From positions 1-42,539 of IMG/VR virus record IMGVR_UViG_3300045051_000584: a stretch of 42,539 nucleotides of DNA; one strand, 5' to 3'. Within the stretch, counting starts at the first letter, position 1. Each line of letters starts with the position of its first letter. Below, in pieces: positions 4,048-32,541 of this stretch. The notes beneath the pieces are model-generated. The model was not told the DNA's origin, ran no database searches, and saw only the letters and a program-made list of their open reading frames with translations. A program made the translations under genes and the position numbers. Source of the stretch: a virus.

Positions 4048-5001
4048 TTATTTATCCCCCTTTTCTGCGTCCCGCTGGTCTATGAGCGCCCCGACGCGCT
4101 CCACTTCGGCCCGCTCTATGGTGTGGCAGCCGATTTTCAGGACGCCGTTAAACGCCGTTACCGTGAAGCCTTCCACAACGGCGCCGACAATATCCCGGCC
4201 GGCCTTAATAGCGTGCCAAAGTACGCGCGCGGCCTTTATAGACACTACCGCGCCCCTGGACGTTTCGACGGCCGCGCCCTTCAGACGTAAGCGCGTAGGC
4301 AGCGGCGCCCCCATAAGGGACCAATAAGACGGCGCCCGCACGCCTTCAACACCAGCGGTCCAGGCGTCAAGCTGCCGCATTTTCTCGGCCCGCTCGGCGG
4401 CCGCCGCCTTTGCGCGGCGCTCGGCCGCTTCCTTATCCGCTTTGCGGGTCGCTGCCGCTTTCGCGTTTATGCGTGCGCGGTCTGTTTCGCTTATCAAGGT
4501 CCCGGCCTCGGCCTCGGCGGCCTTCGCCAGGATAAGGCGCCCGCGCTTGTGCGCGTCCTTATACATGAGGCCTTTAATCGGGAACAGCCGCACATACTCG
4601 GCCGCCTCGCGCAGCACGGCCAGCAGGTCGCGCTCGCACATCTCGGCGTATTTGCGCGTTTTCATGAGCGCGGCCTGCGCGGCCTCTATGCGGGCCAGGT
4701 AGTCCGCGCGGTTTGCGTCTATATCCTCGGGCGCCGTGTCGGGGCGCGTTACGTTGAAGACTTTCAGGCCCAGGCCGTGAAGCGCGCCGCGCGCATAGCT
4801 CTGATGTTTGGAAGTGGTCACGCTATAGCGCCCGTTATTCATGAGCGCGCAGCGCGTGCCCTCCGAGGTGGTGGCCAGCAGGCCGACAACAAAATGCCGG
4901 CCGTAACTGTAGAGCGCCGGGCCCTCATAGTAAAAGCTGCTGCCCGTGCCCCTGCTGCCCGTCTGATTTGCCCAATTATGCGCTACTTGTGAATTGTTCA
5001 T
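4048..5001 (-). CDS. Conserved hypothetical early protein, 317 aa
   Basis: The N-terminal ~100 residues carry SQVAHNWANQTG, GSSFYYEGPALYSYGRHFVVG and YSVTTSKHQSYARGALHGLG. From memory this set resembles a widespread but uncharacterised domain in phages and plasmids (pattern 'Y-S-Y-x-H-F/IA', 'TxxYSxTTSxHxxxxR'). The middle (about 190-225) is an Ala/Lys/Glu/Arg-rich coiled coil, and the end (about 265-317) is a separate basic alpha/beta segment. The start at 5001 follows AAGGAAAGG and the leader ACTAAAATGAAC, also found before the 303-aa gene. It is the second gene of the early operon. Function unknown. Confidence 0.75.
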   Translation of the reverse strand: MNNSQVAHNWANQTGSRGTGSSFYYEGPALYSYGRHFVVGLLATTSEGTRCALMNNGRYSVTTSKHQSYARGALHGLGLKVFNVTRPDTAPEDIDANRADYLARIEAAQAALMKTRKYAEMCERDLLAVLREAAEYVRLFPIKGLMYKDAHKRGRLILAKAAEAEAGTLISETDRARINAKAAATRKADKEAAERRAKAAAAERAEKMRQLDAWTAGVEGVRAPSYWSLMGAPLPTRLRLKGAAVETSRGAVVSIKAARVLWHAIKAGRDIVGAVVEGFTVTAFNGVLKIGCHTIERAEVERVGALIDQRDAEKGDK

Positions 5002-5032
5002 TTTAGTGTACCTTTCCTTTTTGTGATTTGGC

Positions 5033-5944
5033 CTACTCGCCTTTCATTTTCCGTTCAACGGCCCGCGCGGCGCCCAGCACGTCCAGGTAGCCGGGCCTTT
5101 CGGGATTTTCCGCGCAGCGGTTCATATTCTCTAAAGCACGCAGCAGTTCCGCGCGTTCCCCTGCTACGGCGCGCAGCCTTTCGCGCAGCGCGTCGCGCTC
5201 GCCCGTCATCTTTACCAGGTCATCGGCCAGGCGCCCGGCCTTCTCGCGCATTTTGTCGAGCTCGCGCGCTTTCGCGTCCTGGTCTATGGCGTCGGCCGTG
5301 GCGGCGTTCGCGCAGTCCGCGCACGGCTGGACAACGCCGGCGGCGTCGGCGCTGCTGGCGTATTTAGCGCCGCATATAGGGCAGGGCACATTTTCGGCGG
5401 CGTCTTCCTTCTCTATGCGGTCAATAATAGGCTGTACGGGCGGCAGCGCGTCCAGGCCGCAGCGCTCGCGCATGGCCCGCCCCTGGTCTATATTGGTATC
5501 GAAAGCGCGGCGCGCGCGGGCCTTCTCTATGGCGGCGTCATAATCGGCGCGCGCGGTGTCCGCTGCTAACTTCGCCGCGCGGGCCTGGGCGCTATCCTTG
5601 CCGCTCTTGTAATCCCGGCACGCTTCCTTATAGTCATGGTCTGCGCGCGCCCAGGTTGTAAAATCGGACCAAATGGCGGTATTTACTAGGTCATCCGCCT
5701 CTGTGCGGCCTAACGTGTCGAAGGCGTGCGGAAAGCCCAGGGCCACGGCCAGGCCGCGCCGCGCGTCCTTCTCGGCCCATTCCCGGCGCTCGCCCTCGCG
5801 GCTGTAGGCGTTGCGGCTTATGCCCGTCCGGCTGTGGTAGGCGTCGCGGTTGATTATGCGGCGCGCCAAGACGCGCTCGGCCGCGCGCAGCTCGCGCGCT
5901 ACAAGCGCGGCCGCTTTTCGGTTTTGTCCGTTGTTCGTGTTCAT
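5033..5944 (-). CDS. Early-operon first gene, putative zinc-ribbon/coiled-coil protein, 303 aa
   Basis: First gene after the leftward promoter. The ORF is open from 6037, but that ATG lies upstream of the predicted transcription start. ATG 5944 has AAGGAAGGA at good spacing, so I use 5944. A segment CPICGAKYASS...CADC near residues 187-212 is a typical zinc-ribbon pair. It is followed by a long coiled coil (AKARELDKMREKAGRLADDLVKM...). The N-terminal half is basic and helical, with AYHSRTGISRNAYSR. No catalytic motif. As the most promoter-proximal early gene it may act on host transcription or defence; this is inference. Confidence 0.75.
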   Translation of the reverse strand: MNTNNGQNRKAAALVARELRAAERVLARRIINRDAYHSRTGISRNAYSREGERREWAEKDARRGLAVALGFPHAFDTLGRTEADDLVNTAIWSDFTTWARADHDYKEACRDYKSGKDSAQARAAKLAADTARADYDAAIEKARARRAFDTNIDQGRAMRERCGLDALPPVQPIIDRIEKEDAAENVPCPICGAKYASSADAAGVVQPCADCANAATADAIDQDAKARELDKMREKAGRLADDLVKMTGERDALRERLRAVAGERAELLRALENMNRCAENPERPGYLDVLGAARAVERKMKGE

Positions 5945-5980
5945 TTTAGTGTCCTTCCTTTTGTGTCGTTTCACGTCGGG

Positions 5981-5994
5981 CGCCGCTTGCGGCG
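5981..5994 (-). promoter_or_regulatory. Short GC palindrome in the early mRNA leader
   Basis: CGCCGC/GCGGCG around a 2-nt centre, inside the ~75-nt 5' leader between the predicted transcription start (~6019) and the first gene. The leader also carries ACGACACAA twice, at about 6005-6013 and 5963-5972. This could stabilise the early mRNA 5' end. Confidence 0.35.
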
Positions 5995-6025
5995 TGCGCT
6001 CGCGCTTGTGTCGTTGTCTAGTATT

Positions 6026-6054
6026 AGTATACATCACTAAACGCTGTTTGTCAA
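6026..6054 (-). promoter_or_regulatory. Leftward early promoter, TTGACA-N17-TATACT
   Basis: On the minus strand a perfect -35 (6049-6054) and TATACT -10 (6026-6031) are separated by exactly 17 nt. An AT-rich segment (about 6060-6090, including TAATATATTTAA) sits where an UP element would lie. It would start the leftward operon near 6019 and transcribe the early genes and, with read-through, the whole replication cluster across the contig join. The repeats starting at 6141 lie about 90 nt upstream, suitable for regulation from the origin region. Confidence 0.85.
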
Positions 6055-6140
6055 TGGGTCAACGTAATATATTTAACGATGATTTTTGAGGCCCTAAAAA
6101 TGGGCCTAAAAACGGCCCCGAAAACGGGCACGAAAAAGCC

Positions 6141-6534
6141 TTACACAATTCCTTACACATGAACGCCGCGCAAGTGTAAGGCGGGCCGAAGTGTAAGGAA
6201 ATAAGGGCGCGCGGCGTGGCGCTGGCGCGCACATAACGCGCGGCGCCGCGCTAACGCCTTACACTTACACATAAAAGGGCCGTTTTGCGTAGATGTGTAA
6301 GGACTTGTGTAAGGCCGCAATTCTCCTATGAGGATTGTATATCCTTACACATCTTACACATCTTTTAGAGGTACAAGAGTATAAAGGGGGCAGTATACGC
6401 GGTATACGTCCTATACGGCGTATAGGTATAGAGTTTGAAAGTTTGCGAAAAGATGTGTAAGATGTGTAAGACCTCTAAAAACGCTCGCCGGAAAATCCTT
6501 ACACATCTACTCTTACACATCTACTCTTACACAT
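6141..6534. repeat. TTACAC iteron-like cluster, candidate replication origin
   Basis: Counting by eye there are 15 copies of TTACAC: nine forward (6141, 6153, 6259, 6265, 6345, 6354, 6499, 6513, 6527) and six reversed (6174, 6191, 6295, 6307, 6455, 6464). Ten extend to TTACACAT. The last three forward copies are exact 14-bp direct repeats of CTTACACATCTACT. Two doublets (6345/6354 and 6455/6464) face each other across a TATAC-rich centre. The segment is non-coding and lies between two divergent operons. Clustered iterons like this mark replication origins and operator arrays; which it is here is not proven. TTACACA is not a standard DnaA box. Confidence 0.85.
6363..6480. repeat. TATAC ladder between inverted TTTTAGAGGT arms
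   Basis: Inverted arms TTTTAGAGGT (6363-6372) and ACCTCTAAAA (6471-6480) bracket a core where TATAC/TATAG recurs every 9 bp (6394, 6403, 6412, 6421). The core contains the palindrome CCTATAC-GGC-GTATAGG (6410-6426). The iteron doublets lie just outside the left arm and just inside the right arm. The near-symmetric layout suggests a protein-binding core, perhaps an AT-rich melting site or a repressor operator. Confidence 0.7.
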
Positions 6535-6540
6535 CTTAAA

Positions 6541-6905
<365 letters not shown>

Positions 6906-6970
6906 GAAAAATTTTTAAAATTTTGCCCCGCCCCACCTGCCACCGTGAAAAATTTTATAAAAATTTTGGG
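6906..6970 (+). promoter_or_regulatory. Two A/T-tract blocks, UP-element-like
   Basis: Two related blocks, GAAAAATTTTTAAAATTTTG (6906-6925) and a near-copy at 6947-6968, stand out in GC-rich DNA. The second sits directly upstream of the -35 at 6978, in the position where RNA polymerase alpha subunits bind an UP element. They may also be intrinsically bent, easily melted DNA near the origin. Confidence 0.6.
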
Positions 6971-6977
6971 GCCCCTA

Positions 6978-7007
6978 TTGACAGCCCCCCGGCCGATAGC
7001 CTATACT
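6978..7007 (+). promoter_or_regulatory. Rightward structural-operon promoter, TTGACA-N18-TATACT
   Basis: A perfect -35 (6978-6983) and TATACT -10 (7002-7007) with an 18-nt spacer and A-tracts immediately upstream. The predicted start is near 7014. It would drive the rightward operon beginning with the lipoprotein at 7017. With no phage RNA polymerase in the genome, this host-type promoter is probably the main late promoter, unless held off early by something binding the adjacent repeats. Confidence 0.85.
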
Positions 7008-7016
7008 CTAACCAAT

Positions 7017-7223
7017 GTGAAGAAACTTATTCTGCTGCTAGGCATTGGCGCCGTCATCCCGTTAAGCGGCTGCTGTACGGTTCGCCACTCGACAGTCGGA
7101 GAACGCATAGCCGACCTCGAAATGGAGAACGCAGCGCTGCGCGCCGCTAATGCCTATCTGCTCGAAAGCAAACAGACAGGAGGAACAGAGGAATGGAAAA
7201 TAACGATAACCTTGCCGCGCTGA
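7017..7223 (+). CDS. Putative small lipoprotein, 68 aa, GTG start
   Basis: Reads MKKLILLLGIGAVIPLSGCCTVRHSTVGERIADLEMENAALRAAN. It has a charged N-terminus, a hydrophobic core, the lipobox LSGC (Cys at residue 18), then a short coiled coil. This is a classic outer-membrane-type lipoprotein signal. The GTG lies only ~3 nt from the predicted transcription start and no Shine-Dalgarno is present, so translation would be near leaderless. The 3' end overlaps the next gene by 31 nt. A role in superinfection exclusion is possible, as in other phage lipoproteins, but this is inference. The alternative is a chance ORF; the lipobox argues against that. Confidence 0.55.
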   Translation: MKKLILLLGIGAVIPLSGCCTVRHSTVGERIADLEMENAALRAANAYLLESKQTGGTEEWKITITLPR

Positions 7224-25853: not shown

Positions 25854-26411
25854 ATGGCTGTCGCGTCCACCAATCCCTTAAACTCCTACGTCGGAAACGG
25901 CGTACAGACCGCGTTCGACTTCGCGTTCAAGGTCATAGCGGCGACCGACGTCCTGGTCTATGTCGAAACCGGCGAGGGCACGGACGAGTACGACCTGAAG
26001 GTCTATGGCGCCGACTACACCGTGGTCGCTAACCCGACCGACGAGAACGGAACGGTGACGACAACCGTGCCGCCGGCCTACGGGGTGCGGATTAAGATAC
26101 TGCGCTCTACGGAGATGACCCAGCCGTCCCGGCTTCCGCTCGAGGAGAAAATGCCGGCGCGCGTTATCGAGAACGCGCTGGACAAGCTGACCCTCATGGT
26201 GCAAGAGCTTCGCACGCTGTTCGATTTGCCTTTTACCCCAGGTCCATCGCCCAGCGTGCCGTCAAATATCGTAAAATGGTACGAAGGTCCGCAGGCTGAA
26301 AAGCCGGCGGTCATGGCCGAGTGGGCGTTTTGGTACTCGACCGATACACCGGGGGGCGGGCAGCTCGAGATGTACGTCCCTCTTGCGGGGAAGTGGTTTC
26401 TGATAGGTTAG
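25854..26411 (+). CDS. T7-type tail fibre N-terminal (virion attachment) protein, 185 aa
   Basis: The opening STNPLNSYVGNGVQTAFDFAFKVIAATDVLVYVETGEG ... DYTVVANPTDENGTVTTTVPPAYGVRIKILRSTEMTQP is the T7 tail-fibre N-terminal domain (PF03906), followed by the helix ALDKLTLMVQELR. After this anchor only ~50 residues remain, including a small WYEGPQ... segment. The receptor-binding part is thus absent and must be supplied by other proteins. Normal single-chain fibres exceed 500 aa, so this is a stand-alone adaptor. The gene lies 4 nt after the core protein. Confidence 0.9.
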   Translation: MAVASTNPLNSYVGNGVQTAFDFAFKVIAATDVLVYVETGEGTDEYDLKVYGADYTVVANPTDENGTVTTTVPPAYGVRIKILRSTEMTQPSRLPLEEKMPARVIENALDKLTLMVQELRTLFDLPFTPGPSPSVPSNIVKWYEGPQAEKPAVMAEWAFWYSTDTPGGGQLEMYVPLAGKWFLIG

Positions 26412-26437: not shown

Positions 26438-26842
26438 ATGAAAAAGCAGTTCACGTTACTCGGTATAGTGGTGGCCTTCGCCATCATCGGCTTCGCCTCG
26501 ATAGGCGGCGCCCGGTCCCTCGGCTGGCTGTACGGCGACACCCTCGTCATCGGCAACCCGGCCTCCCCCGTGGCGAGCATAAACTCGTCCGGCGTCCTCA
26601 CCGCGACGGGCGTCACGAACACCGGGGCGCTCTCGGGCACGGCCATCACCGGCTCCACCCTGGCCCTTACGGGCAAGCTGGTGCCCGCGTCCAAGACCCT
26701 CGCGCAGCTCGCGGCCATCACGCCGGCGGCCAAGGGCGAGGTATACGCGGTGTCGAACGGCACCATGCTTATCTGCGTGTCCTCGGGGACCGGCACGGGC
26801 GCCTTCACGTCGCCGATAAGCTCGACGACTGCGTGCAGCTAA
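26438..26842 (+). CDS. Exported fibre-locus protein with signal peptide, 134 aa
   Basis: MKKQFTLLGIVVAFAIIGFASIGGARS is a canonical Sec signal (two Lys, ~16 hydrophobic residues, small residues at the likely cleavage site). The mature part is Thr/Ser/Gly-rich and beta-like (GVLTATGVTNTGALSGTAITGSTLALTGKL). It ends in a compact domain, TLAQLAAITPAAKGEVYAVSN ... CVSSGTGTGAF, of the type found at the ends of fibre-like and surface proteins. Two cysteines (113, 133) could form a disulfide after export. Good ribosome site (AAAAGGAG). Role: surface-displayed or fibre-accessory protein, unknown. Confidence 0.8.
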   Translation: MKKQFTLLGIVVAFAIIGFASIGGARSLGWLYGDTLVIGNPASPVASINSSGVLTATGVTNTGALSGTAITGSTLALTGKLVPASKTLAQLAAITPAAKGEVYAVSNGTMLICVSSGTGTGAFTSPISSTTACS

Positions 26843-26851
26843 AGAGGACAA

Positions 26852-27280
26852 ATGAAACAGGCGCTCATAGCTTCTTTCATCCTCCTCGCGGGGGCCACGC
26901 TGGCCCTCGCCGGCGCGAACGACGGCGGCGTGCTGCCGGGGTCTAATCAGACGACCCCGGCGGTCGCTGCCGCTGCCACGCCCGCCGCCGTGGCGATATC
27001 GTCCACGTCCCCCACGCGCATAGACACGGCCGTCAACACGGTGCTGGCCGCCGCCCTGGGCGCGAACTACAACCGGGCCGAGGTTCAGGTCCAGGTGCTC
27101 GACGGGGCTAAAGTCAACTGCGGCTACTCCACCGAGGTCACGACCCAGCCGGCCGGCGGCTTCCAGCTCGTCGTCAATGCGGACCCGAAGCCCTTCAAGC
27201 TCGGGAAGGCGATAGGCATTTACTGCCAGGGCATAGTGTCCACGGCGACGTACATCGTAGGCGGCCTCGGGTTCAAGTAG
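26852..27280 (+). CDS. Exported fibre-locus protein with signal peptide, 142 aa
   Basis: MKQALIASFILLAGATLALA followed by GAND has the textbook ALA cleavage motif. The mature protein has an Ala/Thr-rich linker (25-55), then an ordered domain with two cysteines (90 and 125) in VNCGYST and IYCQGI, consistent with a disulfide formed outside the cytoplasm. No known family. Lies between another signal-peptide gene and the fibre gene; ribosome site AGAGGA. Confidence 0.8.
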   Translation: MKQALIASFILLAGATLALAGANDGGVLPGSNQTTPAVAAAATPAAVAISSTSPTRIDTAVNTVLAAALGANYNRAEVQVQVLDGAKVNCGYSTEVTTQPAGGFQLVVNADPKPFKLGKAIGIYCQGIVSTATYIVGGLGFK

Positions 27281-27288
27281 AGGGCAAC

Positions 27289-30200
27289 ATGAAAAGCAAA
27301 AAAGCGGCTATCTTCCTGGCTGTAGCGCTGGTCCTCGGCGGGGGTCTTTCGGCCCACGCCGGCCCGTTCTATAACCTGTCGCAGAATACTTCGTCGGCGA
27401 CGATGAACCTTTCCGGCGTACTGAAGGTAGCCGCTTCGGCCGCGACGTATACCGTGCCCACCGTGACCATCAATGGCGTCGGCGGCACGGTTATCGCCAC
27501 CGGCACGATATCCGCAGCGCGTTTCGTGGGTGACGGCTCGCAGCTTACGGGGCTGCCCACGCCTGCGGGCTTCTACGCCTCCCTCACCGATTCAAACTAC
27601 TACACCGGGGTCAATCAGTTCCACGCGAACACCTACTTCGACGAGCTGATTTATACCCCTGAAATCTTCCTGACGAGCGCGACGCCGCGCATTATGAGCA
27701 CTTCGCTGCTCCCCATCCTGGTCTATCCTGGCGTCGAGGTTAATTCGTCTACGGGCTACGCGATGAACCGGGTCTACGTCACGACCTCGTCCATCGACGC
27801 CAGCTACTACACCTATCCCGAGCCACGCTCCACGACCATGACGTTCGACCACAATGGCCTGTTCCTGTCGAGCGGCGTTATCGCCGGCGTAGGCCGGACG
27901 ACGGGATTCCCCGGCGTTCAGATAATCAACAACGACGGCAAGATACCGGCGCTGACGTCAGACTACCTTGCCTCCCTGGACGGCTCGGCGCTGACCGGCA
28001 TAGACAAGACCGACGTGACCAAGGTGCCGCTCGGCGGCGGCGTTATGACGGGCTCGCTGATATTCGAGCCGACGTCCATCAGCACGGGCCAGGTAATCTT
28101 CCAGGGCGCCTATCCCCATTCCGTGCAGTTCAATAATCAGTCGGCCACTTCGGCCCAGGAGTTCCTGGGCGAGGTTCAGTTCCTTCAGTCGGGCACCGGG
28201 AAGCGTCGCATTATCGGCTTCGGCGATAACAGCGCGACGTACCCCAAGGAGTTACAGATAGGCGCCGATACCACGTCCCTCGGGACGAACGTCAGGATAA
28301 CCGGCAGCAACACCCTGTCGCCTGACCTGTTCGTGTCCTCGTGGACCTCGGTCGGCGTGAGCAAAATCCCCAATGCTGCGTATAAGCTCGACGTTGCAGG
28401 TTCGATAAACGCTACCGGCATTTACGAGAACGGCGTGCCGCTTACCGGCGGCAGCGGCGGGGACAACCTGGGCTCGCACATAGCCACGATGACGGTGCAG
28501 GCGAACTACGGCCTGGTGACGACCGTGTCCACCCATACGCGGATTTGCCTTGACGGCGACTGCATAGACACCTGGCCCATGTCGGGCACCGACCTGTTCT
28601 TCACCGGCACTTCGGCCGGCGCCGGATACTACCTGGCCATGTCCACGACCAATCCCGCCGGGCAGGCGAGCACCACGACGGTCACGCCTATAACGTCCGA
28701 CGTGATTATCTCCTCCTACGTCTTCGCCAATTTCCAGGCCAGCTTCATAAACGAGGGCTTTTGGATGGTGCACGCCCACGGCTACGTTAATGCCACATTG
28801 GGCAATAAGACCGCGCAGGTCTACTACCGGGTATACGTTTCCACCGGCGGGAAAGGAGCGACCGAAACGCTGCTTCTCACCACCGAGGATTCCCCCGTAC
28901 TCACCACGACCGAAGCGGAGATAGACATGCACGCCTATCTCAACGACTACGCCTGGACGCCTGGCAACTCCCTCATAGTGAAAGCCTTCTCGCGCATATC
29001 CGGCACGGGGTCAGACCCGGCGATAAGCCTGCTGCGCGCCGGCGCCTATGCCTCGCACCTGGCCCTGCCGTCGAACAACAGCTCGTTCGGCGGCTCCTCT
29101 GTTAACCTGCTCCCGCTTGACAACACCTGGACCGGCGCGAACACCTTCTCCCAGGCGATAACCGGGAGCGTAACCGGCAACGCCGGCACCGTGACCAATG
29201 GCGTCTACACCAATGGCAGCTACGCGAATCCGGCCTGGATAACCTCGCTGGCTACGTCGAAGATAGACCTTTCCACCGTCACGACCGCCCTGGCCGGGAA
29301 GCTGTCGAACACCGCCACCGTGCCGACAACCCTGGTCGACCTCTCCACGGTTACGACCGCCCTGGCTGGCAAGCTCTCCAATACCGCCACCGTGCCCACG
29401 AACCTGGTGAATCTCTCGACGGTTACGACCGCGCTGGCCGGCAAGCTCTCCAACACCGCGACGGTCCCCACGACCCTAGTCGACCTCTCGACGGTTACGA
29501 CCGCCCTGGCCGGTAAGCAGGCCACCGGGGACTACCTCACGCGGCTGATTGGCGACGTGCTGGCGATAGGGCCTGGCATGGCCACCGCGACCATAGCGCA
29601 TGTTCCGAACGCGGCCGTGGACCTCTCCACCGTGGCGACGGCGCTGGCTGGTAAGCTCTCGAACACCGCTACGGTGCCGACGACCCTGGTCGACCTCTCC
29701 ACCGTCACGACGGCGTTAAGCGGCAAAGTGGCCAAGGCCGGCGACACCATGACGGGCCAGCTCACGGTCAGCGGGTCCTCCATCACCATAGCTTCGGACC
29801 TGCTGGACTACCAGCTTATCCTGACCGGCGCGAACAAGCGCAACATGAAGTTCGACGACCGCCACGCCGACGCCTCGACGCATAACCTGGCCGAGATAGA
29901 CTTTCTTCAGCTGGGCACGCTGAAACATCAGATATCCGCTTACGGCGATACCAATGCGACGTACCCCCAGGAGCTTCAGCTCGGCTCCCCCTCGGGCACC
30001 GCGTCCAAGGTGCGGATAACCGGCAGCGCCACGCTGAACCCCGACATCTTTGTGTCGTCGTTCAGCAGCGTCGGTATCAACACCGCTAGCCCTAACGCCG
30101 CGTACAAGCTCGACGTGAACGGCGCGTTGCGGGCTACTAACCTGTACGGTGATGGGTCAGGGCTCACCGGGATTGTGGGCACGGGCGCGTCGGCGCTGCT

Positions 30201-31131
30201 GGTGGCCACGAATAGCTGGACCGCGACGCAGAACTTCCTCAATGAAACGAACTTTAACATCGGCACGGGTGGCGGTATCGGATTTCAGAACTACACCGGC
30301 ACCGACTACGGCGGGATAACCTACCAGGGGGGTATCAATTACTTCTTTGGCGGTCCCGCCCAGCTCGGCGCGCAGATATGGAACGGTAAAGTTGGTGGGC
30401 CGTCCGTGACTGTTGTGGACAGCGGCGTCGGCGTCAACGACACGTCGCCGTCTTACGCGCTCGACGTGAACGGCGGGATTCGCGCCACTTCGACCATGAC
30501 CGCCAGCGCGTATTACGGTGACGGGTCTACGCTGACCGGCGTAGCAACAGCGGGGAGCTCAACCACTTTCACCGGGGCCAACACCTTCACCAGGAGCGTA
30601 ACAGCGAGCAGCTTCACCGTCACCCCCGGCGTCGGGAATGTCAGTATGCCGCAGGCGTATGTCCTGGTATGCGACACGCAGACCGCGACGCAGGTAACGT
30701 CCCTCACTTGCTCCAATCTTCCCGGCGCTGGTGCGTACCGCATGGTGGTGGACGTATACAAAGTTACTGCGGGCATTGTGTTTGGCCGGATAAACGCCGA
30801 TACCGCTAATAACTATAAATGGGCAGATATCCGTTTTGCTGCTTCGGGGGTAGGATACTCTGCAACCGTGGATTCGTCTTGGCACTTCTCCGGCCCCGAC
30901 GCTGTGGCTGGCGGGGAGGTCCTGTTCTCCGACGTGTCATTCGCTACCTCGGTCGCTGGGGCCGGCGTCATACGGGGCACTTGGAGCTCGGGGCTAATTA
31001 ACTCGGGCTCTAATTGGGAAACCATAACCGGCTCCGGTTTTTATAACGGCGCCTCCGCTATAAGTTCTTTGTACGTTGCTGTCACGGCGGGGACTTTCAC
31101 CGGGCGCGTTCGCATGTATCGGGCGGAGTAG
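27289..31131 (+). CDS. Giant fibre-like protein with signal peptide, 1280 aa
   Basis: Begins MKSKKAAIFLAVALVLGGGLSAHA-GPF, a clear Sec signal with AHA cleavage site. GDGSxLTG motifs occur at about residues 81, 954 and 1077, each near 'YxLDVNGxIRAT' segments common in fibres and bacterial surface proteins. A 105-residue beta module occurs twice (about 281-386 and 853-961). The shaft has six copies of a 24-aa repeat starting DLSTVTTALAGKL (660-830). Cysteine pairs occur at 420/425 and 1128/1141. It takes the place of the receptor-binding fibre, but a secretion signal on a virion fibre is highly unusual. No S74 chaperone end is seen. Confidence 0.85.
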   Translation: MKSKKAAIFLAVALVLGGGLSAHAGPFYNLSQNTSSATMNLSGVLKVAASAATYTVPTVTINGVGGTVIATGTISAARFVGDGSQLTGLPTPAGFYASLTDSNYYTGVNQFHANTYFDELIYTPEIFLTSATPRIMSTSLLPILVYPGVEVNSSTGYAMNRVYVTTSSIDASYYTYPEPRSTTMTFDHNGLFLSSGVIAGVGRTTGFPGVQIINNDGKIPALTSDYLASLDGSALTGIDKTDVTKVPLGGGVMTGSLIFEPTSISTGQVIFQGAYPHSVQFNNQSATSAQEFLGEVQFLQSGTGKRRIIGFGDNSATYPKELQIGADTTSLGTNVRITGSNTLSPDLFVSSWTSVGVSKIPNAAYKLDVAGSINATGIYENGVPLTGGSGGDNLGSHIATMTVQANYGLVTTVSTHTRICLDGDCIDTWPMSGTDLFFTGTSAGAGYYLAMSTTNPAGQASTTTVTPITSDVIISSYVFANFQASFINEGFWMVHAHGYVNATLGNKTAQVYYRVYVSTGGKGATETLLLTTEDSPVLTTTEAEIDMHAYLNDYAWTPGNSLIVKAFSRISGTGSDPAISLLRAGAYASHLALPSNNSSFGGSSVNLLPLDNTWTGANTFSQAITGSVTGNAGTVTNGVYTNGSYANPAWITSLATSKIDLSTVTTALAGKLSNTATVPTTLVDLSTVTTALAGKLSNTATVPTNLVNLSTVTTALAGKLSNTATVPTTLVDLSTVTTALAGKQATGDYLTRLIGDVLAIGPGMATATIAHVPNAAVDLSTVATALAGKLSNTATVPTTLVDLSTVTTALSGKVAKAGDTMTGQLTVSGSSITIASDLLDYQLILTGANKRNMKFDDRHADASTHNLAEIDFLQLGTLKHQISAYGDTNATYPQELQLGSPSGTASKVRITGSATLNPDIFVSSFSSVGINTASPNAAYKLDVNGALRATNLYGDGSGLTGIVGTGASALLVATNSWTATQNFLNETNFNIGTGGGIGFQNYTGTDYGGITYQGGINYFFGGPAQLGAQIWNGKVGGPSVTVVDSGVGVNDTSPSYALDVNGGIRATSTMTASAYYGDGSTLTGVATAGSSTTFTGANTFTRSVTASSFTVTPGVGNVSMPQAYVLVCDTQTATQVTSLTCSNLPGAGAYRMVVDVYKVTAGIVFGRINADTANNYKWADIRFAASGVGYSATVDSSWHFSGPDAVAGGEVLFSDVSFATSVAGAGVIRGTWSSGLINSGSNWETITGSGFYNGASAISSLYVAVTAGTFTGRVRMYRAE
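29266..29730 (+). repeat. 72-bp tandem repeats in the fibre gene, six copies
   Basis: Copies start at 29266, 29338, 29410 and 29482 (exact 72-bp spacing), then 29620 and 29692 (again 72 bp) after a unique 66-bp insertion. They encode DLSTVTTALAGKLSNTATVP-like units. Silent differences between copies show selection on the protein sequence. Copy number could change by recombination and alter shaft length. Confidence 0.9.
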
Positions 31132-31147
31132 GAGTATTAAGGACATC

Positions 31148-31456
31148 ATGGGCAACAAGCATTGGGACGGCAAAGAGCGCCGCAGGGCCGATAACGACGA
31201 GGGCCGCTGGGAATTCGAGCGGGACGTTATCATGTTCATGGCGCGCATAGACGAGCGCCTGGACAACCGGGACGACACCTGCGACGCGCGCGGCGAAACG
31301 GTGAAGAAACTCGGGGACCGAGTGACCAGCCTCGAAACGTTCCGCAACATCGTCGTATGGACCTTCAAGCTCCTGGGCTACGGCTCGGCGACGGTGGCCA
31401 CGGCCTACGGCGCCGTCGTCGGGATAATGCACCTGCGGGCCATCATAAAACCTTAA
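31148..31456 (+). CDS. Membrane-anchored coiled-coil protein, lysis-cassette candidate, 102 aa
   Basis: Starts at ATG 31148 (TTAAGGA upstream); the longer in-frame ORF from 31076 overlaps the fibre gene. A charged N-terminal half (KHWDGKERRRADNDEGRWEFERDV), a coiled-coil segment (GETVKKLGDRVTSLETFRN), and one C-terminal TM stretch (LLGYGSATVATAYGAVVGIMHL). It lies directly before the endolysin candidate. The topology fits a small phage membrane protein of the hemolysin-XhlA or holin type. Function inferred from position. Confidence 0.65.
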   Translation: MGNKHWDGKERRRADNDEGRWEFERDVIMFMARIDERLDNRDDTCDARGETVKKLGDRVTSLETFRNIVVWTFKLLGYGSATVATAYGAVVGIMHLRAIIKP

Positions 31457-31467
31457 TCGGGGGCACT

Positions 31468-31923
31468 ATGAACGCGACAAGACTGAAGGAAATTCTCGAC
31501 CGGGTGCGGCAGCAGCCCGACCTGGCGCCGCGCAAAGACGGCACCACGTTCTGCAACATCGCCCTGGACCGCATACTCGGGCTCTACGGCGCCGCGCGCA
31601 TGACGGCGCCCAAGAACGTGCCGCTCATGGCGAACGACATGGTCGACTTCATGCGTAACAACCCCCAGCTTTGGGTGCCGGTAAACGGCGACGTGGCCTG
31701 CGCTCGGGCCTCCCAGGGCGTCCTGGTGGTGGCGGCCCAGCAGGCCGACGGCCACGGGCATGTCGCGGCCGTCTATCCGGCGCCGATGGAATATAGCGGC
31801 TCGTGGAACAAAGAGGTCCCCATGCTCAACAACATCGGCAAGAAGAACGCCGTCATGCGCGCCTCGATGTGCTTTCACGCCGAGCCCGAATACTTCTCGG
31901 TGCGTATCTCGGGGGCGGCATAG
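31468..31923 (+). CDS. Putative cell-wall amidase/peptidase (endolysin), 151 aa
   Basis: A single small domain with a candidate catalytic Cys in DGTTFCNIALDRILGLYG (about residues 27-44) and His in GHGHVAAVYP (about 92-101), a Cys-His layout as in CHAP/NlpC-P60 cell-wall hydrolases. MANDMVDFMRNN and FSVRI near the end fit a family of lysins with 'TxCN ... ANDM ... GHVAxV' motifs that I recall from phages. No separate wall-binding domain and no signal peptide, so release would need a holin. Start 31468, after GGGGGCACT. Confidence 0.75.
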   Translation: MNATRLKEILDRVRQQPDLAPRKDGTTFCNIALDRILGLYGAARMTAPKNVPLMANDMVDFMRNNPQLWVPVNGDVACARASQGVLVVAAQQADGHGHVAAVYPAPMEYSGSWNKEVPMLNNIGKKNAVMRASMCFHAEPEYFSVRISGAA

Positions 31924-32109: not shown

Positions 32110-32155
32110 TCTGCTGGTAGCTAAATTGAGAGCAATACGGAGGAAATCATGTTAA
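31973..32155 (+). CDS. Alternative small ORF in lysis cassette, 60 aa (tentative)
   Basis: An out-of-frame overlap with the 31927 ORF. ATG 31973 has GGAG 8-9 nt upstream, a better ribosome site than its rival, and its stop overlaps the start of the 130-aa gene (ATGTTAA). The product is basic and moderately hydrophobic, ending YNLLVAKLRAIRRKSC. One of the two overlapping frames, or both, may be real. Confidence 0.35.
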   Translation: MNAGTGARLGLLNRLMSAISRRVTVTLWSERDGWLPFAARTKKMYNLLVAKLRAIRRKSC

Positions 32156-32541
32156 CCGCACTTCTGACTTTCGCGGGCAGCAAACTCGGGCTGGTGAGCG
32201 CCGGCGCGGGCCTGGGCGCCCTGGTCCTGTGGGCCGGCGGCAAGTACCTGCCGAAGTACGCCGGCGGCGCCATGACGTCGCTTATCGGCGGCGCGCTGAA
32301 GAACGTCAACGCCATCAAGGACCCGACCCGCAAGCAGCTCGTCCACAACCTCGCCGTGGACCTGGCCAAGCTGGCCGAGTACGAGATACCCGACAAGGGC
32401 GCCGGCGTCGAGAAGTACGCCAAGGTGGCCGCCCAGCTCTGCACGCTGCTGCCGTTCCTGAAGGGCCGCGACGCCGCTGTCGAGGCCATCATCGAGAACG
32501 CCGTGGCCGCGATGGACGAGGAGCTGAAGCAGGTGAAGTAG
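32149..32541 (+). CDS. Putative holin-like membrane protein, 130 aa
   Basis: The N-terminus MLTALLTFAGSKLGLVSAGAGLGALVLWAGGKYL (about residues 1-34) gives one or two closely spaced TM helices rich in Gly/Ala. The rest is helical and charged (KQLVHNLAVDLAKLAEYEIPDKG ... AIIENAVAAMDEELKQVK). Small membrane proteins at the end of a late operon near an endolysin are usually holins or related. ATG 32149 has ACGGAGG upstream. It is the last rightward gene before the terminator. Specific holin class unknown. Confidence 0.55.
   Translation: MLTALLTFAGSKLGLVSAGAGLGALVLWAGGKYLPKYAGGAMTSLIGGALKNVNAIKDPTRKQLVHNLAVDLAKLAEYEIPDKGAGVEKYAKVAAQLCTLLPFLKGRDAAVEAIIENAVAAMDEELKQVK

Follow-up and report, generated by a model that had tools for sequence, protein, structure and literature searches.

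Predicted Sec signal peptides on three adjacent fibre-locus proteins of a podophage and a possible split tail fibre in phages of Elusimicrobiota

It is assumed that the tail fibres of tailed phages fold in the cytoplasm and are attached to the virion there. The locus considered here, in a virus contig of 42,539 bases with a podovirus gene set (the window, meaning this whole stretch of DNA), raises the question of why three consecutive genes in fibre position should begin with Sec signal peptides. The structural set of the window comprises a large terminase, a portal/head-tail adaptor, a major head protein, tail proteins and internal virion proteins, and the window also encodes a family A DNA polymerase, a Prim-Pol/VapE protein and an SNF2 helicase. 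Its 896-aa tail protein has the Manatee Spring podophage and Pelagibacter phage HTVC010P as nearest named phages and is 36–39% identical to proteins of Elusimicrobiota prophages across two thirds of its length; the phage is an epsilon15/HTVC010P-like podophage.

The three genes (g1, g2 and g3; Table 1) follow a separate gene for a T7-type fibre N-terminal domain (the stub, or adaptor), which a preliminary description had rightly recognized as a stand-alone gene. In T7-type and epsilon15/phiV10/BPP-1 fibres (relatives in phrog_1640), the same virion-attachment domain occupies the same place after the internal virion proteins, with fibre-like repeats downstream as in the window, and the adaptor is 29–36% identical to the N-termini of the epsilon15, phiV10 and BPP-1 fibres. 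In those phages, however, this domain forms the N-terminal part of a longer fibre or spike that lacks a signal peptide and is produced and assembled in the cytoplasm, whereas in the window it lies outside g1–g3: the stub ends at 26,411, and g3 starts at 27,289 with a predicted signal peptide of its own, as do g1 and g2. The adaptor carries no signal peptide and ends in FWYSTDTPGGGQLEMYVPLAGKWFLIG, a C-terminal motif common to stubs in other loci. The window holds a tail fibre locus with a new feature, namely outer parts bearing Sec signals, and the adaptor and g1–g3 are the only receptor-binding candidates left in it. A lysis cassette probably begins downstream of g3 with a small membrane protein for which no family match better than E 0.05 was obtained; a Pfam search with the product in endolysin position gave no match, and the holin-like protein that follows is 27% identical to a protein at the same place in an Elusimicrobiota myoprophage.

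Table 1. Features of the fibre locus and adjoining lysis region, in window coordinates.
Feature	Position	Strand	Evidence
Stand-alone T7-type fibre N-terminal domain (stub/adaptor), 185 aa	25854..26411	+	phrog_1640 tail protein, E=2.8e-26
g1, 134 aa, exported fibre-locus protein (predicted)	26438..26842	+	Signal peptide score 13.8; orthologues
g1 signal peptide, MKKQFTLLGIVVAFAIIGFASIGGA then RSLGW	26438..26512	+	Predictor and orthologue alignment
g2, 142 aa, exported fibre-locus protein (predicted)	26852..27280	+	Signal peptide score 12.7; orthologues
g2 signal peptide, MKQALIASFILLAGATLALA then GAND; cleavage after Ala22 also possible	26852..26911	+	
g3, 1280 aa, exported fibre-like protein (predicted)	27289..31131	+	Signal peptide score 14.7; 0/1000 shuffles
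g3 signal peptide, MKSKKAAIFLAVALVLGGGLSAHA then GPFY	27289..27360	+	Predictor and alignments
g3 N-terminal module, GPFYNLSQNTSSATMNLSGVLKVAAS...	27361..27540	+	Found after signal peptides in other Elusimicrobiota phages, E 7e-10 to 1e-3
g3 shaft section, ...YANPAWITSLATSKIDLSTVTTALAGK...	29161..29640	+	Common to host secreted surface proteins
72-nt tandem repeat within g3 shaft	29266-29518		
Small membrane protein, probable holin or XhlA-like	31148..31456	+	ORF and hydrophobic segment; inferred
Probable endolysin-position gene, without signal peptide	31468..31923	+	Position; inferred
Holin-like membrane protein	32149..32541	+	phrog_6918 holin, E=0.036 only

Signal peptides were called with a rule-based predictor of our own (positive n-region, charge-free h-region and an [AVSTGILC]-x-[AGSC] cleavage site), with each of the three genes scored at its own first ATG. 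All three N-termini score as secretory, far above shuffles and background: when residues 2–40 were shuffled, the real score was matched in five (g1), one (g2) and none (g3) of 1000 trials, and scores of at least 12 were reached by 28 of 1123 virus-locus genes (at least 150 aa) and 10 of 883 antisense ORFs. Ribosome-binding sites are good (AAAGGAGAAAGACT-ATG for g1, and likewise purine-rich for g2 and g3). No signal peptide was called in the other structural genes of the window, where a score of 12 or more was otherwise reached only by two ORFs, one at 6608 (poly-Cys, alternative start) and one at 6903 (lipobox). The latter (6903–7223, + strand) is a small ORF in which an in-frame alternative start gives a lipobox-type signal peptide; it weakly matches phrog_18718 (E=0.0035).

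Relatives were gathered by tail-protein alignment (A1), yielding 80 viral loci; single-protein searches of IMG/VR with g2, the adaptor and the 1588-aa internal protein found no close relatives. Several of the contigs compared are partial. The closest arrangement is that of G253 (IMGVR 3300009031_000299), which has orthologues of the adaptor, g1, g2 and g3 in the same order; its g1 (67% identity) and g2 (48%) carry strong signal peptides, and its g3 a weaker one (score 10.2; 24/1000 shuffles). G255 (3300009285_003776) encodes g1-like (33%) and g2-like (36%) proteins, both with signal peptides, together with a g3-like N-terminus, and in G254 (3300037117_000201) a 181-aa adaptor is followed by four to five exported genes. 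The orthologues bear on the cleavage sites that had first been proposed: those of g2 (ALA/GA) and g3 (AHA/GP) stand, but that of g1, initially placed after GARS, is moved by the aligned orthologues (AAA/RTLGW and AVA/RTTG) to a position after GGA-25, so that the mature protein would begin RSLGW. Because the signal peptides are conserved among orthologues, the presence of Sec export signals on g1–g3 is well supported, and with it the prediction that the proteins are exported. It is very improbable that these hydrophobic N-termini are instead membrane or tail anchors, or tolerated by-products, of proteins that assemble in the ordinary way in the cytoplasm; the calls do come from a rule-based predictor, but a Lys/Arg n-region, an h-region and a small-residue cleavage site are kept at the same alignment position despite divergence, and three unrelated proteins in a row carry them.

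Paired cysteines, also pointed out in the preliminary description, are present in even numbers in g1 (two, at 113/133), g2 (two, at 90/125) and g3 (four, in two close pairs at 420/425 and 1128/1141), while the adaptor and the 1588-aa and 522-aa internal proteins contain none. The g1 pair is kept in the G253 orthologue, and the g2 cysteines are both absent in G253 and both present in G255, as expected of a disulphide, in a comparison of three sequences. To judge from sequence, the pairs fit oxidative folding outside the cytoplasm.

The g3 signal peptide followed by a [GS]P[FY]Y module occurs in the window, G253, G254, G140, G136 and G275 and, in diverged form, in G255 and G250. It is found in podophages, in siphophages and, diverged, in one myoprophage, with prophage copies in Elusimicrobiota genomes (G-numbered host genomes were placed in this phylum via that of G001, Elusimicrobiales bacterium STB_10). 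G140 has siphophage-type tail genes adjoining chromosomal genes, G250 is a contractile-tail prophage (tail sheath, E=9e-138, and baseplate genes), and a profile search recovered the module in siphophage 3300027373_000174 (G275) and its near-copy 3300005403_000103. A short non-exported protein with a [YWL][AS][ST]D... motif at its end lies immediately before the exported protein in seven independent loci: the window, G253 and G254 (podophage type), G140, G136 and G275 (siphophage type) and G250 (myophage type). Examples of these ends are YYSTD...GKWILVG and WATDT...YTGD...GGFITLG. The motif stood at the end of 10 of 72 genes preceding an exported gene (six independent systems, with G136 found by hand as the seventh) and of 4 of 1507 others in these loci; since it had been noticed before the counting, the test is partly circular and its P value is not to be taken at face value, though the low background is real. 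In the siphophage-type loci a 79–81-aa gene with an NGD[VM]PDA..LM..F stretch stands between the tail tip gene and the exported fibre. G275, whose tail tip gene is 38% identical to that of G140, reads tail tip, 79-aa stub, 952-aa exported fibre, 88-aa protein in holin position and endolysin-like protein, and between its tail tip and lysis genes nothing but the exported protein qualifies as a fibre candidate. A lake podophage lineage (L264/L265 and L266) has a signal peptide joined directly to the T7-type adaptor domain, in two diverged versions with a strong Shine-Dalgarno site in front.

The conservation of signal peptides amid sequence divergence, the pairing of stub and exported gene in three tail types, the lone fibre candidate of G275 and the adaptor fusion all favour the view that g1–g3 form the outer portion of a split tail fibre in a phage infecting Elusimicrobiota, exported through Sec and joining a stub on the virion around lysis. 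We put the chances of this at about even. Against it stand several observations. The myoprophage, in which a 202-aa fibre-type protein (phrog_4900) takes the stub position, additionally has a conventional non-exported collar fibre (L347); most related podophages fuse the adaptor to their fibre and lack an exported fibre gene; in gut Elusimicrobiota prophages, whose tail genes are related to those of the window, the fibre genes lack signal peptides; ahead of the exported genes of G255 and G007, both partial contigs, no stub was found; and a short adaptor predicts an exported neighbour among 46 adaptor loci as a suggestive trend only (p=0.06). The weaker score of the G253 g3 and the partial circularity of the motif count weigh on the same side. 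The wider proposal, that Elusimicrobiota phages of three tail types keep a stub on the virion, secrete shaft and tip via Sec for periplasmic maturation and capture them at lysis, is advanced more tentatively.

The split fibre would be built as follows. The gaps between adaptor, g1, g2 and g3 measure 8–26 nt, a tight spacing that suggests one late transcript for all four. The stub would attach to the tail in the cytoplasm, leaving a virion that carries only this short protein, while g1–g3 would be made as Sec pre-proteins, pass to the periplasm and be cleaved by signal peptidase I; there their cysteine pairs could be oxidised. Holin holes would allow virions to mingle with periplasmic fibres while the outer membrane is still closed, and around lysis, after the inner membrane has been breached, g1–g3 would dock on the stub of the virion, with g3 binding the receptor. 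The tailspikes of P22 and the fibres of T4 are the last parts to be attached, and in extracts they can still be added to particles; attachment after lysis is therefore feasible.

A different function is suggested by the architecture of g3, which consists of the signal peptide, the N-terminal module, a repeat shaft and a C-terminal region. The best cellular matches of g3 are in Elusimicrobiota, namely chromosomal genes whose large products start with a signal peptide, in most cases followed by a QGRL-type N-terminal domain, and the shaft repeats are 61–75% identical to these in protein and 65–79% in DNA. Many g3 matches consist mostly of a 32–50-aa YANPAWIT stretch that is common in ordinary phage fibres and gives little information on origin. 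Neither g3 nor g2 matched INPHARED phages, and g3 matched no PDB sequence. With regard to a trimeric beta-structured shaft, g3 offers a repeat pattern; AlphaFold2 models of g2 (pLDDT 38) and of the g3 C-terminal region (pLDDT 34) were too low in confidence for use. A weak Pfam match of g3 to DUF6489, and matches of host repeats to Birna_RdRp_C and the like, were taken as chance.

Bdellovibrio mosaic adhesive trimers (MAT) also have a signal peptide; in them it is directly followed by a conserved beta-rich domain of about 130 aa, and they are surface-located as trimers and act on the bacterium's own surface (PMC10769870). Like g3, both they and the Elusimicrobiota surface proteins combine signal peptide, N-terminal domain and long phage-like fibre. 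This shared layout, and the shaft repeats common to g3 and the host proteins, would suit phage-made surface adhesins that are held on the infected cell via the module after the signal peptide and never enter the virion, serving in receptor masking, superinfection block, keeping progeny off debris or cell clumping. Phage-made exported receptor blockers do exist, as in the small receptor-blocking lipoproteins that T5 (Llp) and phi80 (Cor) export to the envelope. We nevertheless regard an adhesin role as unlikely. The signal peptide is followed in the host proteins by an [IS][NS][YF]QGRL domain but in g3 by an unrelated GPFY module, and g3 has no host-type anchor domain; g1–g3 share with Llp and Cor the predicted export to the envelope but have no lipobox, all three cleavage sites being free of nearby cysteines, and g3 runs to 1280 aa. 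An adhesin role would moreover leave the window phage and G275 without a receptor-binding protein, and it explains neither the stub gene beside an exported gene in three tail types nor the signal peptide on a virion adaptor domain.

Similarity to host proteins also raises the question of whether g1–g3 are cargo captured from the host, as moron or lysogenic-conversion adhesins in the manner of lambda lom that alter the surface of the carrier cell. Such an origin agrees with the resemblance of the shaft to secreted host proteins and with exported genes adjoining tail genes in two Elusimicrobiota prophages. In one (L333), a 223-aa exported protein (...LLLAQSIYA/...) lies 13 nt after the tail gene; in the other (L346), a 241-aa protein (...ILKFGITPYS) lies 1313 nt after it. 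Both precede a non-exported fibre, in a lambda Lom-like place, and are possibly outer-membrane conversion proteins. For g1–g3, however, the captured-cargo reading is improbable. Among 248 Elusimicrobiota genomes, the g3 N-terminal module was found only beside tail genes (G140 and G136; diverged in G250) and is absent from the host surface proteins that share the shaft repeats, and g2 likewise gave no match away from tail genes, apart from two weak ones interrupted by stop codons. The three genes are tightly packed between adaptor and lysis genes, and no tyrosine integrase was found in the 42.5-kb record, which may be incomplete. Of the interpretations first offered (surface export, capture of host proteins or joining of fibre parts outside the cytoplasm), export is well supported, and capture is partly borne out: the shaft repeats of g3 resemble host repeats, but g1, g2 and the g3 N-terminal module were not found in hosts outside prophages.

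Exported genes lie near tail genes in other phages as well. In podophages L216, L217 and L218 the adaptor is followed by exported genes with no evident homology to g1–g3, and in related podophages signal-peptide genes, several of them fibre-like, are placed before the tail gene rather than after the adaptor (L139 6950–7627, L141 1923–3447, L144 2454–3454 and L152 3809–4663). In L220 (IMGVR 3300029893_000045; 4542–7157), an 871-aa tail-nozzle-like protein with no PHROG match opens with a signal-peptide-like MFKAAAALLLALPGLSCA followed by AELH; if this signal peptide is real, export in that phage might go beyond the fibre. Two unrelated viral contigs, one siphophage-like (L033 5329–10017 and L064 155–8723), contain runs of exported fibre-like genes, including a 753-aa pectate-lyase-type tailspike and a 1254-aa fibre, both of which bear signal peptides. 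Genes of this exported fibre-locus type may not be confined to Elusimicrobiota phages. Gut Elusimicrobiota prophages were considered as closest relatives of the window phage and set aside, given fibre genes without signal peptides and many loci that look like remnants. Among the 248 Elusimicrobiota genomes, podo-type tail genes occur in 50 and a sipho-type tail tip in 30; in many gut-type genomes the tail loci (L115–L126, L128, L129 and L131; L322–L325) run on into chromosomal genes, with no fibre gene and no gene for a large internal virion protein, and look like remnants or domesticated GTA- or tailocin-like elements.

No account of a tailed phage exporting its tail fibre through Sec came up in a search of the open literature, with most subscription papers and preprints outside its scope; a rumen phage paper describes unspecified signal-peptide proteins in Bacteroides phages (PMC5723332). 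Among cultured phages, Rhodoferax phage P26218 encodes right after its fibre genes an exported 169-aa protein, gp24 (KP792623; L263 7280–7789; MKHLRKLIQLIGLFVLCFSAQA followed by QYVS). No similarity of gp24 to g1–g3 was seen, and the phage is a convenient laboratory model for an exported fibre-locus protein. For the window phage, a split fibre predicts that virions contain the processed N-termini RSLGW, GAND and GPFY. If true, receptor-binding proteins that carry disulphide bonds or mature in the envelope would become accessible to phages, which could also keep from binding host material within the cell, and phage fibres would be tied to the secreted, fibre-like adhesins that their hosts make. 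That podo-, sipho- and myophages of a single phylum carry the same module would point to the biology of the host envelope as an influence on how fibres are assembled.
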